A model generated the notes under the pieces. The model had not been told where the DNA came from and did no database searches. It saw only the letters and a list, made by a program, of their open reading frames with translations. A stretch of DNA of 27,199 bases, taken from the NCBI GenBank assembly GCA_002727515.1, contig PBXF01000010.1, forward strand, positions 9,316-36,514. Reading direction: 5' to 3'. The translations under genes and the position numbers were made by a program. Below, one piece after another: positions 1,332 to 9,414 of the stretch. This stretch comes from Methanobacteriota archaeon (GTDB lineage: Archaea > Thermoplasmatota > Poseidoniia > Poseidoniales > Poseidoniaceae). Positions within the stretch are counted from its first letter, which is position 1, and each line of letters opens with the position of its first letter.

Positions 1332-1424
1332 AAAACCCCCCCAATCCTTTGCTTTCTCAAAGGTTGCCCTTCAATTTTGAATCAAATGCCGATTGCAAGA
1401 CAAAACTTTCACGGCCGAAATCTG

Positions 1425-1455
1425 TGTCCCCTACGGGGACATGGGAAGGGGACAT
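1425..1455. promoter_or_regulatory. GTCCCC/GGGGAC inverted and direct repeats in a divergent spacer
   Basis: The spacer between the two divergent genes holds a perfect 7-bp inverted repeat, TGTCCCC-TAC-GGGGACA (1425-1441). A second copy of GGGGACAT follows at 1448-1455, 13 bp downstream of the first (1435-1442). Three half-sites in 31 bp next to a gene start fit a transcription-factor operator; a small RNA hairpin is the alternative. A second, unrelated inverted repeat, CCTTTG-6-CAAAGG, lies at 1346-1363 close to the minus-strand gene's start. Function is inferred only from symmetry and position. Confidence 0.35.
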
Positions 1456-1487
1456 TCATATGCCATACTTATTTGGGTAGACTGTTG

Positions 1488-4400
1488 ATGACTATGAGAA
1501 AGTCGCTACCGTTTGCTTTGGTTGCCCTACTAGTATTCCAAACTGTAATGATAACAATTACAGAAAATGTGGAAGCAGCAGAAGGAAGAGGAGGTTCATC
1601 AGATGACTTCTTCGTTCAAGAAATAACTTACAATTCCTCTGGTATTGAGACATGGTATCAGCCTGATGGTTCAATGGTCATGTACGTTGCAAAAGGTGAC
1701 CTTGTGGACATCGATGTTACTGTAAAAAGAGGAGGCAGTGCTCTAACCGGCTCTAGCGCTACCGTTACTGTAGACATAGTCCATCCAGTTGGTTTCGTGA
1801 TGAATTCCAGTAATTGGACAACAACTCCTCTGCTAGGAAGTCAGTCATTCAAGGGAAGTTACACTTGGGAAGCAAGTATTGCTCATTCTTACCTGAATGT
1901 GTCCTCAAATGAACTCTCAGGAGGAGTTATAGTAAGGGCTACAGTAAACAACCCTGCTGATGACCGAAACGAAAACGATGTAATGGAATCAACACTTCCA
2001 ATCGCTGTAGCACAAGATGATATGGAAGCCGAAGGTGATCCAAGAGACGGAGCATTCGGCCCAGCATCTATTCCTACTTTCTATGGTGCTAACTTCCCAA
2101 TTGACGGTTCTGACGCCAACGGACTTGGTTCGTGGCAACAGGATAATTCAGCATCAACCAATGGAGATGCCCATTGGAGACATTCTAATTCAGGCTCAGA
2201 CTATCCTTCAAATTCCAGAAGTCGTCTTGTTTTTGCACACCGTGCAGGCTCATCAACTTGTGATTACGGAGCCCAACTTGATGGTGGAATGTCCAACACA
2301 TACCAGCAATGGATGTGCAAGATGCAACTAAATTCTGCAGGGCATATGTCAGCTCAAATGCACGTGAAGACCTACGGCACAATGGGAGCGGGAGATTTCG
2401 TAGCCCTTGAATTATGGAGAGGCAATGGTGCACCAGAGTCTACATTAAAACACGAATTCAAGAATGATTTGCCCAGCACTACAGCAGGAGTATGGAGCAA
2501 CATATCATGGGATCCAACTGAAGACCTAGGTGGCCATTCTTGGTCTTATGGTCTAATATTCCAATCCGATAGTTCAGGTGCAGCAAGCGGAATGCACGTC
2601 GATGATTTCGTAATGTTTGGAATTGAGAAGGTAGATGAATACACCTTAGATGTTGATTGTGACAACCCTTCAAGCGGATACACAACACCACCTAACAACA
2701 TTCTATCTCTTCATTGCATGGTGACAAATAACGGTTACAAAAATGCACAATTTAGAGTACAATCCAATGTTTCCAATGTGTCATGGATGAATCCTAGCCT
2801 CCCGATGATTAGAATAGACAGCGCAAACCCAACTCAGCACGGAACTACTGTACTAATTCCTCCAATTCCAGGAGGAAATGTGACAGAGATGTGGATAAAC
2901 CTCTCAATCCCTGCAGGTGCTGATGTTCAACAGCAAGTTTGGCAGGTTTGGTGGACAGATGCAGGTGGTACTCAACTCGGAGAACTTGGACGTATATCAT
3001 CGGACATAGCGGTGACGGAACAGTACGGTGTGCATCTATCATCACCAGTACCTCTTATTGCTGCTACAATGATGCCAGGGGAAACCACAGATATTCCTTT
3101 CAAACTACAAAATGCTGGCAATAGAGTTGCATCTTTCGCGGTAACAGCAAACTTCCAAGAAGATGACTGGAACTCATTTGTAACAGATTTGAATAACACA
3201 CCTGTTCAGATGCCGATACCTCTTAATAGAGGTCAAGAGATGAATCTGCTGCTAAATGTGACGGCTCCTGCACAAGCAACTCCTGGTGAAATGCCATTTT
3301 CACTCAGAGCTGTATGTCCGTCTTGTGGGCAATCACTATTTGGTAACGATGTAATCTCCAAGAAAATTGAAGTGCCAGTATTCAGGTCAGTAGAGATGTA
3401 TACAGAGGACACTCAAATTTCTGCCCAAGCTAACGGAGTTGCAAGAGTAGTTTACATTGATATTTTCAACAAAGGCAACTCAGATGAGTCGTATACTTTA
3501 GAACTCATGCAATCCAACTGGAGGCTAGAGGCATATCTTTCCAATTCAGAAACGCCGACTCTGGATGCTTGGTACGGAGATACAACCATTGCACTGAATT
3601 TACCAATGCCGGTTGGTCTATCTCCAAGCCCTTACACTGCTACAATTGTAGCAAAGAATACCGAAGATGATACCATCAGAGACCAGATAATCATCTATGT
3701 TGACGTCGAGGACACATCAGCAGTTTCGGTTTCAGATCAAAACGCTGACCAGTCCTATGTCCCTGGTGACATTTCCCAATCAATGAGATTTGAGGTATTC
3801 AATGACGGTAACCAAGCGGATAGATTTTCAATGGACATGAATATTCCTTCTGGAATGATGGCCAACTTTGAACAATTATCAGAAGGAAACCTAACGCCAA
3901 TGTTAGAGCCAGGTGAATCTTACAATGTAACTGTAAGATTTTCCTTTGCAGATGAAGCAAATGGCCAATTATTGCTAAACGTAATAGCAACAAGCGTAAA
4001 TGATCCTACAGTTTCAGATTCAGGTAGTTGCTTTTATCGCGTAGGTTCTCAAAATACAATGAATTTAGTATTCTATGATACAATAGTCATCAGCGAACCT
4101 GGTCGACATGAAATTCAAGTAGAGTTAAAGAACAGATTGAAAGAAGGTCAATCTGTATCGATGTCAATTGACCAAAATGGTACGAACCGTTGGTATGGCA
4201 CATCACTGGCATCGACAGACAGAGAGTTCTGGCTTGAATTAGAAGGAGAACGAGAAATTACAGTGATTTTCGAAATTCAAAGTTCAAGTTTGAAGAATCT
4301 AGAATCTGATTTCATAACAACAGAAATAACACTCTGGGCTGTTTCAAATACCTTAGAAGATGCTGAAGGGTTACCAATTATAGTGAATCTGCAGAAAACA

Positions 4401-4781
4401 AGTTCATCAACTGAAGATTCAGCATCATCTGGTGAAGACTTCGATTGGGTTGGAATTGGAATCTGGGTAGTAGGGGGAGGCGTCATTCTCGCCTTACTCA
4501 TGGTTTTACTTATAGTGATTAATTCCACAGATGAAGATGAAGAAGATTGGTCAGAGGGAGGGTACGAAGACAACCTTTCTGCAACCTATGGTTCCGTAGC
4601 AGCTGCACCTACAATACCAACTGCTGACTCACCAAGTTTGATTCCAAATGTTTCACCTCCGGCACCTTCGGCTCCTGCGCCGCAAACCGGACCACCTGTC
4701 CCCGCAGCAGGCCTTCCAGATGGTTGGAATATGGAGCAATGGCAACATTACGGACAACAATGGCTCGACAGCCAAAAATGA
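1488..4781 (+). CDS. Large secreted, C-terminally membrane-anchored surface protein
   Basis: The open frame extends upstream to a TTG at 1377. The ATG at 1488 (or the one two codons later) is preferred because it puts a classic signal peptide at the N-terminus: basic MRK, then a hydrophobic stretch to about residue 20, then an Ala-rich cleavage region near VEAAEG. The extracellular part is about 960 residues, rich in Asn-X-Ser/Thr sequons. It contains a Trp/Gly-rich beta-sandwich-like region (roughly residues 190-380, lectin- or MAM-like in feel). Several Ig-like/CARDB-style segments with VFNDGNQADRF-type motifs follow. A single membrane helix lies near residues 987-1011, then an acidic stretch, a Pro/Ala-rich linker and a conserved-looking end, LPDGWNMEQWQHYGQQWL. 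The architecture suggests a cell-surface adhesion or S-layer-associated protein; the ligand is unknown. About 1097 residues. Confidence 0.85.
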   Translation: MTMRKSLPFALVALLVFQTVMITITENVEAAEGRGGSSDDFFVQEITYNSSGIETWYQPDGSMVMYVAKGDLVDIDVTVKRGGSALTGSSATVTVDIVHPVGFVMNSSNWTTTPLLGSQSFKGSYTWEASIAHSYLNVSSNELSGGVIVRATVNNPADDRNENDVMESTLPIAVAQDDMEAEGDPRDGAFGPASIPTFYGANFPIDGSDANGLGSWQQDNSASTNGDAHWRHSNSGSDYPSNSRSRLVFAHRAGSSTCDYGAQLDGGMSNTYQQWMCKMQLNSAGHMSAQMHVKTYGTMGAGDFVALELWRGNGAPESTLKHEFKNDLPSTTAGVWSNISWDPTEDLGGHSWSYGLIFQSDSSGAASGMHVDDFVMFGIEKVDEYTLDVDCDNPSSGYTTPPNNILSLHCMVTNNGYKNAQFRVQSNVSNVSWMNPSLPMIRIDSANPTQHGTTVLIPPIPGGNVTEMWINLSIPAGADVQQQVWQVWWTDAGGTQLGELGRISSDIAVTEQYGVHLSSPVPLIAATMMPGETTDIPFKLQNAGNRVASFAVTANFQEDDWNSFVTDLNNTPVQMPIPLNRGQEMNLLLNVTAPAQATPGEMPFSLRAVCPSCGQSLFGNDVISKKIEVPVFRSVEMYTEDTQISAQANGVARVVYIDIFNKGNSDESYTLELMQSNWRLEAYLSNSETPTLDAWYGDTTIALNLPMPVGLSPSPYTATIVAKNTEDDTIRDQIIIYVDVEDTSAVSVSDQNADQSYVPGDISQSMRFEVFNDGNQADRFSMDMNIPSGMMANFEQLSEGNLTPMLEPGESYNVTVRFSFADEANGQLLLNVIATSVNDPTVSDSGSCFYRVGSQNTMNLVFYDTIVISEPGRHEIQVELKNRLKEGQSVSMSIDQNGTNRWYGTSLASTDREFWLELEGEREITVIFEIQSSSLKNLESDFITTEITLWAVSNTLEDAEGLPIIVNLQKTSSSTEDSASSGEDFDWVGIGIWVVGGGVILALLMVLLIVINSTDEDEEDWSEGGYEDNLSATYGSVAAAPTIPTADSPSLIPNVSPPAPSAPAPQTGPPVPAAGLPDGWNMEQWQHYGQQWLDSQK

Positions 4782-6512: not shown

Positions 6513-6577
6513 ACAACAAACCTTCAAAGGCTAAGTTCCTGTGGCTCTTATTGCGCAGCGTGAGCGTTGGTGATATC

Positions 6578-8545
6578 ATGGCTACAGTCGCAAAGGTTTG
6601 GATAGAAGAAGACTGTATCACTTGCGATGCATGTCAAGACATTTTACCGGAAGTTTTCGAGGTAACTGACGATACAAGTCAGATTAAAGCGGAAGTCAGA
6701 GAAGATGGTTCGTTTGATAGAAATACCGGATTGTCTGCTATCAAGGAAGAATTCAGAGCAGAATACTCAGAATTAATCGAGGAAGCAGCCGATGCATGTC
6801 CTGTTGAAATCATCAAATTCGAATATGCAGGCGGAGCAGTTGAAGCAGAAGCTCCTGTCGAAGCAGCTGCTGTAGAAACAGCGCCAGCAGTTGAGGCAGC
6901 AGTGGCACCTAGCGCAGATGATGGCGTTTTAGCAGACCTTCTATCTGGAGACCGTAGCCTAGCGGTTTTCTTTGGTTCTCAAACTGGAAACGCAGCAGGT
7001 CTCGCCGAAAAGACCGCAAAAAAAGCGGCATTGTATGGTTTGGATGCAAAGGTCTTGGATATGGACGGATATGATCCAGCCCAGTTTGCATCAAACAAGA
7101 GAGTGTTAATCATCACCTCAACATGGGGTGAAGGAGAAATGCCAGACAATGCAGATACTCTTTGGAATCAGACATTGGCTACAAAACCTTCATTGAGCGG
7201 AATTCATTATTCAGTTTGTGCTATTGGTGACACATCATACGACGAATTCTGTAAAGCAGGCACAGATTGGGATGACAAATTCTCAGAACTCGGTGCGAGT
7301 TCGATTCAAGAAATACAACTCTGTGATGTAGATTTCGAGCCGGCATGGGAAGTATGGGTCACCGCAGTATTGCCAAGAATTGCATGTGTAGATTCGTCAG
7401 GTACTTTCCAAGAAGAGTTGCTAGAAGCAATGATTGCTTATGGTTCAGGAGATGATGATGATGAGGCAGATATTGGAGATTTCACTCCAGGAATTATCGA
7501 GCAAGCAACAATGTCAATGAATCTAAAGATTTTCAGATACGATCCTTTGAAGGCTGAATCTGGATACGACACAGTTGCAGTTGTTCTACCAGGACATGCA
7601 ACTTTGGAGGATGCTTTAGTGGCAGTCAAGAGAGACGTTGATGGCTCGCTTGCATTTAGAAGCGGGAGCCTCTGTGGTACGAATCCTCTAACCGGAGTCA
7701 AAGCAAACGGTAGAATTCTTCCAGCGGATACTACCAGAGTCTGTGATTTGATTAGCGAAGGGGGAACTCTGACAATAGAACCTCTACCGGGTTACGAGGT
7801 TTTGAAAGACTTGATGGTATCTTATGACAGATATGAAATCGCAAGAGCCAAATCTAATCCATGGCTTGTTGCTGACCCAAGACAAGGAGAAAAATTACCG
7901 AATGGTGCTCCAATGGGAGTTATGAGTTCAGATGAAGCTACTCACCTTCACTCGCTAGCAGATGTTGGTTCTCTTCAATTAGTAAATTCAATGTCGGATA
8001 CATTTGACATCGATGATAACTACTGTGGTCCAGGTATCGCCCTTCAGAGATGGGTTCGAAGTCAGGATTCTCGTTCTGGACAAGCTCATGTTAAGCAAAT
8101 GTACGAACTAATGCAGAGAAAAGGTGGCGTTTGGGATGAAGCAGATATTTCATCGATTGCACGTCATGGTATTGATGGCTCACAAGCCGCAGACTCTCTC
8201 TTCGCAGCAAGGTCTCGTTTGCTTGCAGAATACAAATTCACAGGTAAGACTGGAAGACTTGTTAAGAATTATTCAAGATCTGTAAAGATGTCTGGGAACG
8301 TTAACGAAACAACGCTCTACCGTTCAGTTCTAGGTCCATTAGGTCTTGGTTCTAATTTATTGAACGGTGTCTCATTAAGAATGATGCTAGGTTTCACTAG
8401 AACAGGTGGTCCTATAATGAGAGGCTTCCAAGGTATGCTACTACCTCCTGCAGGAATTGGTAAAATCCCTGATATGTTCAATTCTAAGATTCACAACCAC
8501 CACGAGGTCGTAGCGATTTTCAACGAATTAGATAGCAGGTTCTAG
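6578..8545 (+). CDS. Ferredoxin-flavodoxin-SdhB-like fusion protein, cluster ligands lost in the SdhB part
   Basis: The ATG at 6578 follows GGTGAT and starts directly at the ferredoxin domain; a TTG further upstream (6551) adds nothing conserved. The 655-residue product has three parts. Residues 1-85 form a one-cluster ferredoxin with C13, C16, C19 and C74 (DACP). An Ala/Glu/Pro linker (86-125) leads to a flavodoxin fold (about 127-270) with the FMN phosphate loop GSQTGN at 133-138 and STWGEGEMPD at 181-190. After an acidic hinge, residues 314-560 follow the SdhB/FrdB layout (LKIFRYDP, the LAFRSG region, IEPLPG..VLKDLMV). The Cys-rich 2Fe-2S, 4Fe-4S and 3Fe-4S motifs are replaced; only C366, C389 and C483 remain there. 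About 95 further residues at the C-terminus are unassigned. It is followed after 8 bp by an HdrB-like gene, so the two probably form an electron-transfer complex. The substrate is unknown and no SdhA flavoprotein is nearby. Confidence 0.8.
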   Translation: MATVAKVWIEEDCITCDACQDILPEVFEVTDDTSQIKAEVREDGSFDRNTGLSAIKEEFRAEYSELIEEAADACPVEIIKFEYAGGAVEAEAPVEAAAVETAPAVEAAVAPSADDGVLADLLSGDRSLAVFFGSQTGNAAGLAEKTAKKAALYGLDAKVLDMDGYDPAQFASNKRVLIITSTWGEGEMPDNADTLWNQTLATKPSLSGIHYSVCAIGDTSYDEFCKAGTDWDDKFSELGASSIQEIQLCDVDFEPAWEVWVTAVLPRIACVDSSGTFQEELLEAMIAYGSGDDDDEADIGDFTPGIIEQATMSMNLKIFRYDPLKAESGYDTVAVVLPGHATLEDALVAVKRDVDGSLAFRSGSLCGTNPLTGVKANGRILPADTTRVCDLISEGGTLTIEPLPGYEVLKDLMVSYDRYEIARAKSNPWLVADPRQGEKLPNGAPMGVMSSDEATHLHSLADVGSLQLVNSMSDTFDIDDNYCGPGIALQRWVRSQDSRSGQAHVKQMYELMQRKGGVWDEADISSIARHGIDGSQAADSLFAARSRLLAEYKFTGKTGRLVKNYSRSVKMSGNVNETTLYRSVLGPLGLGSNLLNGVSLRMMLGFTRTGGPIMRGFQGMLLPPAGIGKIPDMFNSKIHNHHEVVAIFNELDSRF

Positions 8546-8553
8546 GTGTTCAC

Positions 8554-9414
8554 ATGGTAAAGTACTCGTATTACCCAGGAAATGTTGCTAGGCAATCCTC
8601 TCAAGAAGTAGAAGATACAATTCAACCCCTGTGTAAAACACTTGGAATTCAATTGATTGAAATGGTAGGTTACAACAGCGACGGAGGAAACATTATCCGC
8701 CAAGGAAATAGAGAATTACAACTAGCTTTGAATGCTAGAAACCTTGCCATTGCACAAGAAAATGGTCATGGAATTATGACTCCGTGTGCATCTGCTCAGG
8801 GCATATTGTATGAATCTTTGAAGACATTTAGAGAAGACCCGATTGCTTTAGCGAAAGCCAACACTGTACTTTCCAAAACATCAAACATGGTGCTAAACGC
8901 AGATGATGTCTCTACTAGCCATTTGCTACATGTACTGGTTGACGAAATAGGACTGGATAAGATCGAAGACGCTGTCGTTAACCCATTGGATATCGAAATC
9001 GCTTGCTATTATGGCCCTCACATGCAAAGAGAGGGCGCTTGTGGTGCGGATGACGCTTGGAATCCTACTTACATGGAACAGTTGATTACAGCACTTGGCG
9101 GTAGACCTGTGGAGTATGCATCCAAATGTGCTAGTGTTGGAAATCCCTCATTGTTGACTCTTGGTGATTCAGTAATGAAAATGACCGCTCGTGTTTTAAA
9201 TGATGCAAAGAAAGCAGGTGCGAAAATTATGGTTTCAGCATGCACTCTCTCACACTCTAACCTAGATTCCTACCAGAGTAAAGCCGGCCGAGTTGCAGGA
9301 AAAGATACTAACTTGCCTGTTGTTAACCTCACAGAGATAGTAGCATTTGCATTAGGTCACTTTACTGATAGATTTGCTCAGTTAAAAACAAGAGCAAGAA
9401 TCATTGGTTCATAG
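8554..9414 (+). CDS. HdrB/SdhE-like CCG-domain protein with eroded cysteine motifs
   Basis: The 286-residue product follows the two-repeat layout of the CCG-domain family (HdrB of heterodisulfide reductase, SdhE-type subunits, C-terminal half of thiol:fumarate reductase TfrB). It has YYPG at 6-9, the GIMTPC region at 73-78, CYYGPHM at 151-157, WNPTYMEQLITALGG at 169-183 and a SACTLSHSNLD segment at 228-238. In family members these places carry the Cys ligands of unusual 4Fe-4S clusters. Here position 10 is Asn, 42-43 are Ser-Asp, 81 is Ala, 155 is Pro, 193 is Ala and 233 is Ser; only C78, C192 and C230 remain at expected sites. The gene lies 8 bp after the SdhB-like fusion, indicating co-transcription. 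Its stop overlaps that of the convergent Hef gene. A structural or repurposed role in an Sdh/Hdr-like complex is inferred. Confidence 0.8.
   Translation: MVKYSYYPGNVARQSSQEVEDTIQPLCKTLGIQLIEMVGYNSDGGNIIRQGNRELQLALNARNLAIAQENGHGIMTPCASAQGILYESLKTFREDPIALAKANTVLSKTSNMVLNADDVSTSHLLHVLVDEIGLDKIEDAVVNPLDIEIACYYGPHMQREGACGADDAWNPTYMEQLITALGGRPVEYASKCASVGNPSLLTLGDSVMKMTARVLNDAKKAGAKIMVSACTLSHSNLDSYQSKAGRVAGKDTNLPVVNLTEIVAFALGHFTDRFAQLKTRARIIGS

Follow-up and report, generated by a model that had tools for sequence, protein, structure and literature searches.

Proteins of the CCG family bind non-cubane iron–sulfur clusters through the motif CX31-39CCX35-36CXXC. They occur as SdhE/HdrB in SdhABE-type succinate:quinone oxidoreductase (SQR), MFR and heterodisulfide reductase, and PMC5861303 describes the heterodisulfide as bound and reduced by HdrB between two clusters. 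We analysed two adjacent open reading frames, ORF1 and ORF2, in a 27,199-nucleotide stretch of DNA (the window; contig PBXF01000010.1, positions 9,316 to 36,514) from an archaeon of the Poseidoniales (Thermoplasmatota). ORF1 contains an SdhB-like part and ORF2 is HdrB/SdhE-like; both have lost most of their cluster ligands, and the pair is almost certainly a repurposed relic of succinate dehydrogenase (SDH) that is kept under selection. In PMC6741140 the two genes of this Marine Group II pair are labelled ‘succinate dehydrogenase cytochrome b subunit’ and ‘sulfite reductase flavoprotein’.

ORF2 shares its fold with SdhE/HdrB and is related to them in sequence, but eight of the ten cluster cysteines are replaced in the window, and four of the ten already in the least reduced relatives. 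Compared with SdhB from the SdhA-SdhB-SdhE sets of loci L131 and L134, ORF1 adds N-terminal carrier domains and keeps none of the 12 ligand cysteines. TfrB (thiol:fumarate reductase B), an SdhB-HdrB fusion, has the same order of parts, and two natural fusions of ORF1 with ORF2 share its layout behind the carriers. Its match to ORF1 is weak, however (E 1.4e-4, residues 313-430), and ORF1-ORF2 is predicted to lack the clusters, has extra carriers and, in the window, is divided between two genes rather than joined in one chain. The two halves of CysJ lie here on two genes: one is matched by the ORF1 flavodoxin, the other by an unlinked reductase. PMC5322553 describes ferredoxin and flavodoxin as isofunctional carriers exchanged under iron limitation; here, in contrast, the exchanged unit is a domain cassette inside a single gene, replaced many times.

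Iron–sulfur ligands and selection on the pair

Residues 311-653 of ORF1 belong to the SdhB family over both domains and align end to end (98%) with SdhB of L131 and L134. In the window the loss extends over every canonical ligand column for the three iron–sulfur clusters, and 107 of 112 aligned ORF1 rows likewise have no cysteine in any of these columns, the other five (G133, G328, G205, G275 and G308) having one. By hhalign, C366 of the window possibly pairs with one canonical ligand; it is not conserved in the family. The framework of the SdhB-like region and its extended C-terminal part are strongly conserved. A second, canonical SdhB is encoded in 137 of 145 Poseidoniales genomes (E ≤ 1e-40), and in G001, where it was read, this copy adjoins an SdhA and its cysteine set is complete. 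Given this canonical SdhB elsewhere, the ORF1-ORF2 pair is separate from respiration, and the possibility that it replaces the cell's sole SdhB is ruled out.

ORF2 belongs with the HdrB/SdhE (CCG) family, its structural neighbours being HdrB, LutA, EtfD, an H. pylori protein and then Asp/Glu racemases. It does not hold the two complete CCG cysteine sets: C78 and C230 are the two cysteines left, and they correspond to chain residues 78 and 231 of 5odc_B. A phylum-wide search found ORF2 in 79 genomes at E ≤ 1e-78, followed by a gap to 3e-50, where full-motif SdhE-like proteins begin, several of them within SdhA-SdhB-SdhE sets of other Thermoplasmatota (L130-L136). Twenty-seven such canonical SdhE proteins have the full ten cysteines, whereas eight are replaced in each of 45 family members, which keep C78 and C230. 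Across 81 ORF2 proteins (80 loci and the window) N10, D43, C78, S194, V195 and C230 are invariant, and S233 varies once. Among 113 sequences (112 Poseidoniales genomes and the window) we found no ORF2 with ten cysteines. The first cluster site (site 1) has all five cysteines in 10 of them, reads N-S-C-C-T in 55 and N-[SG]-D-C-[SA] in 48; none of the 113 has an intact site 2, where S194 and C230 are present in every sequence and S233 in 112.

The ten genomes with an intact site 1 have an SdhB part without any ligand-column cysteine or, in two of them, with one, and they branch early in both halves of a midpoint-rooted tree. This tree comprises 111 genomes and the window, the fusion in G064 being left out. 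With the ligand columns masked, the tree shows exactly two changes between intact and broken site 1. A single clade of all broken-site-1 rows was rejected (log-likelihood 88.8 worse, approximately unbiased (AU) p 0.006, quick tree), the group tested having been defined by residues but after the first tree was seen. Because the canonical relatives are intact, we read this as two losses of site 1, in which identical C10N and C42S changes would have arisen twice. C78 and C230 are unchanged through both. Judged from these sequences, ligand loss is stepwise, not simultaneous.

The last point revises the original prediction, made from the sequence of the window, which had the ligands lost in both partners at once; this does not agree with ten genomes that keep site 1 and with the rejection of a single site-1 loss. 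It also likened the pair to a split TfrB; since the nearest cluster-bearing relatives found are SdhE proteins of SdhA-SdhB-SdhE sets, a split TfrB is not the best source. The ligand loss that it noted was borne out in both genes, as was an ancestry from SdhB and HdrB/SdhE, by family matches, fold and the end-to-end SdhB alignment. Loss of the cluster wire, which it thought probable, agrees with the empty SdhB ligand columns and the uniformly broken site 2, and the substitutions proved to be fixed across Poseidoniales. Homologues with full cysteine sets, which could have marked the pair as a decaying copy, were found as SdhE in other Thermoplasmatota, and the cluster-poor form is conserved.

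Selection on the pair, also predicted, is evident. The ORF1 profile matches in 138 of 145 Poseidoniales genomes, 136 of these at E < 1e-77, and few of the matches listed have internal stops; a large protein collection yielded 301 and 1075 matching proteins, the best 120 being listed in each case. Pairwise omega, calculated with a Nei-Gojobori script for ten usable pairs (an eleventh was saturated and excluded), was 0.013-0.110 over the core of ORF1 and 0.005-0.081 over ORF2, showing strong purifying selection on both genes. ORF2 lies downstream of ORF1 on the same strand in all 78 loci that have both, at a spacing of -38 to +11 bases in 76; one of the remaining loci has a fusion and one a spacing of 251. 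The natural in-frame fusions, L047 (943 aa) and L140 (987 aa), support the view that ORF1 and ORF2 form one working unit, with the proviso that a sequencing error is possible in either.

Exchange of the N-terminal carrier

Seventy-six ORF1 proteins have complete fronts (75 loci and the window), of which 55 begin with a ferredoxin and 21 with a second flavodoxin. Ferredoxin cysteines C13, C16 and C19 are, accordingly, present in 55 of 79 aligned rows, the rest being the 21 flavodoxin-type rows and three truncated ones. On a tree built from the remaining parts of the pair, front type requires 12 changes (counted without the three truncated rows), and 10 of the changes are forced by well-supported branches. 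In the wider genome set, presence of the ferredoxin needs 19 changes, 16 of them forced, leaving out G249 and G266, in which a contig end cuts the front, and G240, in which the match begins within the ferredoxin. These reconstructions show at least 10 exchanges between the N-terminal ferredoxin and a second flavodoxin.

Locus L001 provides a clean example. Its DNA is 93.5% identical to the window upstream and 91% downstream of the swapped stretch, and only the ferredoxin cassette (Table 1) is replaced, by a flavodoxin stretch at 7785-8395. At the DNA level the inserted stretch and the flavodoxin already present in the window are 69% identical over 325 columns. The genome that holds L001 also has a free-standing flavodoxin gene (L169:7206-7652). 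Within or just past the ORF1 flavodoxin domain, C214, C225, C249 and C270 are invariant in 79 of 79 ORF1 rows. The link between the pair and its attached carriers, suggested in the original prediction, is supported.

Candidate partners and gene context

One candidate partner is the unlinked reductase, of which the two examples scanned represent the FAD/NADP half of CysJ; this domain is found in 138 of 145 Poseidoniales genomes (134 of them with one match) and, among 292 Thermoplasmatota genomes, in 78 of the 79 that bear the pair. ORF1 holds the sole Flavodoxin_1 domain in eight of ten genomes; the other two, both with a two-flavodoxin ORF1, have one more, located on the CysJ-like reductase in G252 and in a free-standing gene in G002.

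The reductase carries a flavodoxin in none of 72 genomes with a ferredoxin-type ORF1 versus 26 of 47 with a non-ferredoxin type (Fisher 1e-13), or 26 of 49 (Fisher 3e-13) if the two genomes with cut fronts, G249 and G266, are counted as non-ferredoxin. As relatives are not independent, we also used phylogenetically independent pairs on separate branches: of 16 such pairs about eight change together and none oppositely (median p 0.008, range 0.002-0.031), and the outcome is the same for 17 pairs, with cut or unsure fronts counted. In all eight loci read of L200-L207, ORF1 starts with a single flavodoxin straight behind the thermosome gene, and no second carrier motif, ferredoxin or flavodoxin, lies ahead of it; all eight genomes have a flavodoxin-bearing reductase. 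The carrier thus seems, by sequence comparison, to have changed place between the two genes. Since the reductase is flavodoxin-bearing only where ORF1 has no ferredoxin, we consider it the probable electron donor to ORF1.

For these counts, 128 of the 138 genomes with an ORF1 match were scored for both genes; partial, split or fused matches were not entered (G031, G064, G130, G291, G312, G322, G324, G347, G351 and G359), and the Fisher test omits G046, in which the reductase frame is intermediate in length. Reductase type was assigned by open-frame length, at least 600 aa indicating a flavodoxin, as checked on 30 loci; G348 was set by eye. G354, G308 and G360 were scored as one-flavodoxin; G360 has two, and all three remain in the non-ferredoxin class.

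In 14 genomes searched, neither a sulfite/nitrite reductase (PF01077; matched in 11 of 14 control genomes) nor a P450 was found, and a chain that feeds either enzyme is rejected for these genomes. With the two usual CysJ-type clients not found there (other clients were not searched), the SDH-derived scaffold is the likely end of the chain. In two loci, L316:10528-17688 (G001) and L165:6097-13833, the reductase gene lies about 3 kb from canonical sdhA-sdhB, beside a gene that by eye resembles phytoene desaturase.

A second candidate partner is an SdhA-like protein, about 540 aa long, that combines a FAD_binding_2 with a Succ_DH_flav_C domain and is encoded in 130 of 145 Poseidoniales genomes (E ≤ 1e-45); both domains are kept in the two proteins scanned. 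Against TIGR01812 it scores 298 bits, below the cut-off of 567, compared with 752 for an SdhA of the SdhABE type. In all 27 rows aligned (26 of them different; 27 of 32 loci were covered), other residues stand in place of the FAD-linking His, the His of QFHPT and of HYxMGG, the Arg of RGEGG, HGANRLG and LLTRD and the Glu of RGEGG, whereas SdhABE and canonical SdhA rows keep all these residues, which we take to be those of catalysis and FAD linkage. The L327 protein matches SdhABE SdhA better than it does canonical SdhA (E 4e-53 versus 3e-25), while that of L328 is equally near to both. A complex of this protein with the pair is possible, and we propose it tentatively, at less than even chances; were it the partner, the A, B and E subunits of a single ancestral enzyme would all survive, each without its known chemistry. 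A protein of about 530 aa (L317-L326) was rejected as a second SdhA, as the one scanned, of L318, scores as an L-aspartate oxidase.

The neighbours of the pair in the window are a thermosome gene and a helicase-nuclease-like gene (the latter named by eye), with relatives in 71 and 77 of 80 loci, respectively; no sdhA adjoins the SdhB-like gene. The neighbourhood (thermosome, helicase-nuclease, ribosomal operon) provided no functional lead. A large open frame at 1377-4781 of the window has a signal-like start and a transmembrane-like end, and a relative in 68 of 80 loci. Coordinates are collected in Table 1.

Table 1. Positions of the gene pair, its domains and residues in the window, and of SdhA-like genes in other loci.
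Feature	Position	Strand	Basis or conservation
ORF1: ferredoxin, CysJ-type flavodoxin and full-length SdhB-like protein, 655 aa	6578..8545	+	
Ferredoxin domain, single cluster (C13, C16, C19, C74)	6578..6817	+	Fer4_13/Fer4_15 matches
Exchangeable cassette: ORF1 start with [4Fe-4S] ferredoxin	6535..6945	+	Comparison with L001
CysJ-type flavodoxin domain	6959..7336	+	Flavodoxin_1 7e-30; best model cysJ; PDB 1ykg
SdhB-like part, residues 311-653	7508..8536	+	SdhB family match, hhalign
ORF2: HdrB/SdhE-fold protein, 286 aa, 2 of 10 cluster cysteines left	8554..9414	+	
N10 of ORF2 (canonical SdhE: C10)	8581..8583	+	N in 103/113, C in 10/113
S42-D43 of ORF2 (canonical: CC)	8677..8682	+	S/C/G, D/C across Poseidoniales
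C78 of ORF2	8785..8787	+	Invariant, 113/113
C230 of ORF2	9241..9243	+	Invariant, 113/113
SdhA-like gene	L327:1178-2806	+	
SdhA-like gene	L328:875-2503	-	
Further SdhA-like genes	L329-L358		

Proposed electron path and its rivals

We propose that the ancestor of the pair was SdhB together with SdhE of an SdhA-SdhB-SdhE type succinate:quinone oxidoreductase, the iron–sulfur wire of which would have been replaced by carriers fused to SdhB. NADPH would reduce the unlinked CysJ-type FAD/NADP reductase, which would pass electrons to a first carrier, ferredoxin or flavodoxin, fused to ORF1 or to the reductase itself, and from there to the FMN of the constant CysJ-type flavodoxin in ORF1. This FMN would in turn reduce the SdhE-like subunit docked on the SdhB-like scaffold. 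The working site would lie where the cluster pockets used to be. Its chemically active residues would be C78 and C230, which belong to different pseudo-symmetric halves; most likely, these two cysteines would perform a reductive (thiol/disulfide) step in place of the two clusters employed by HdrB. A third subunit may be the SdhA-like flavoprotein with its replaced catalytic residues. For the predicted NADPH-driven flavin relay, ending in a C78/C230 site on an SDH-derived scaffold, we see about an even chance; that C78 and C230 are the active residues is, taken by itself, rather doubtful.

Besides the late definition of the group in the single-loss test, several observations weigh against the relay. 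Neither the reductase gene nor the SdhA-like gene is linked to the pair. Six genomes carry the reductase without a match to the pair (G285 of the Poseidoniales and five small Thermoplasmatota of 1.0-1.4 Mb), so the reductase is older than the pair system or not limited to it. In 21 of the 47 non-ferredoxin genomes the reductase has no flavodoxin, and the coupling of carrier and reductase is therefore one-directional; comparison of one- and two-flavodoxin ORF1 with reductase type was not significant (6 pairs). The predicted structure of ORF1 is poor (pLDDT 62, pTM 0.34), and in the SdhA tree the fork to SdhABE SdhA is open, with long branches. As to the five small genomes (L311-L315), in four of them a reductase of 369 aa adjoins, or lies downstream of, a gene named by eye as ribosomal-protein-like.

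Alternatively, as the original prediction suggested, the pair may be a cluster-free scaffold, which would merely position ferredoxin or flavodoxin close to a partner enzyme and itself perform no chemistry. The SdhB ligands are gone while the framework and the extended C-terminal part are highly conserved, as such a scaffold would have it, and the separate SdhA-like protein could serve as the partner. However, invariant C78, C230 and S194 and near-invariant S233 at old ligand positions look like a kept or new site, and repeated C10N and C42S changes are unlike neutral filling, which makes this reading unlikely, if one to be taken seriously.

It is also conceivable that metal is still bound, as a cluster or a single metal at site 1 with the mixed ligands N10, S42, C/D43 and C78, which would make it a reduced version of the site with five cysteines. 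The ten genomes with all five site-1 cysteines, the 55 with C43 and C78, and the polar, nearly fixed nature of the replacing residues are in keeping with this. The window's clade, however, has one of the five site-1 cysteines, and in each of the 113 sequences site 2 is down to one of its five; we regard bound metal as distinctly improbable.

An iron-poor alternative complex II, in which the pair and the SdhA-like protein would still act on succinate, fumarate or a similar acid and exchange electrons with flavodoxin, would explain why homologues of A, B and E are all present, the SdhA-like protein being widespread and retaining its domains where scanned. Replacement of the SdhA catalytic residues in every row aligned and the presence of canonical SDH as well make it very unlikely. 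The Asp/Glu racemases that follow among the structural neighbours of ORF2 are two-lobed enzymes with one catalytic cysteine per lobe, and chances are slim that ORF2 is, like them, a cofactor-free two-cysteine enzyme. That the pair is a decaying paralogue, pseudogene or assembly artefact, as ligand loss as such might suggest, is practically excluded by its spread over 138 of 145 genomes, the few internal stops among the matches listed, omega of 0.005-0.11 and the protein matches in the large collection.

Four findings go beyond the original prediction: the swapping of the carrier, the probable reductase partner, the constancy of C78 and C230, and the SdhA-like protein. Together with a repurposed SDH relic, they point to an unrecognised iron-saving redox system in common ocean archaea. 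The NADPH-driven relay proposed above would show a cluster-rich respiratory module stripped of iron and rewired with flavins, with intermediates still alive (a site 1 with five, two or one cysteine) and the same replacements apparently reached twice. It gives a near-universal, misannotated Marine Group II gene pair a testable role and a likely reductase, and the natural ferredoxin/flavodoxin cassette switch could be mapped onto ocean iron.

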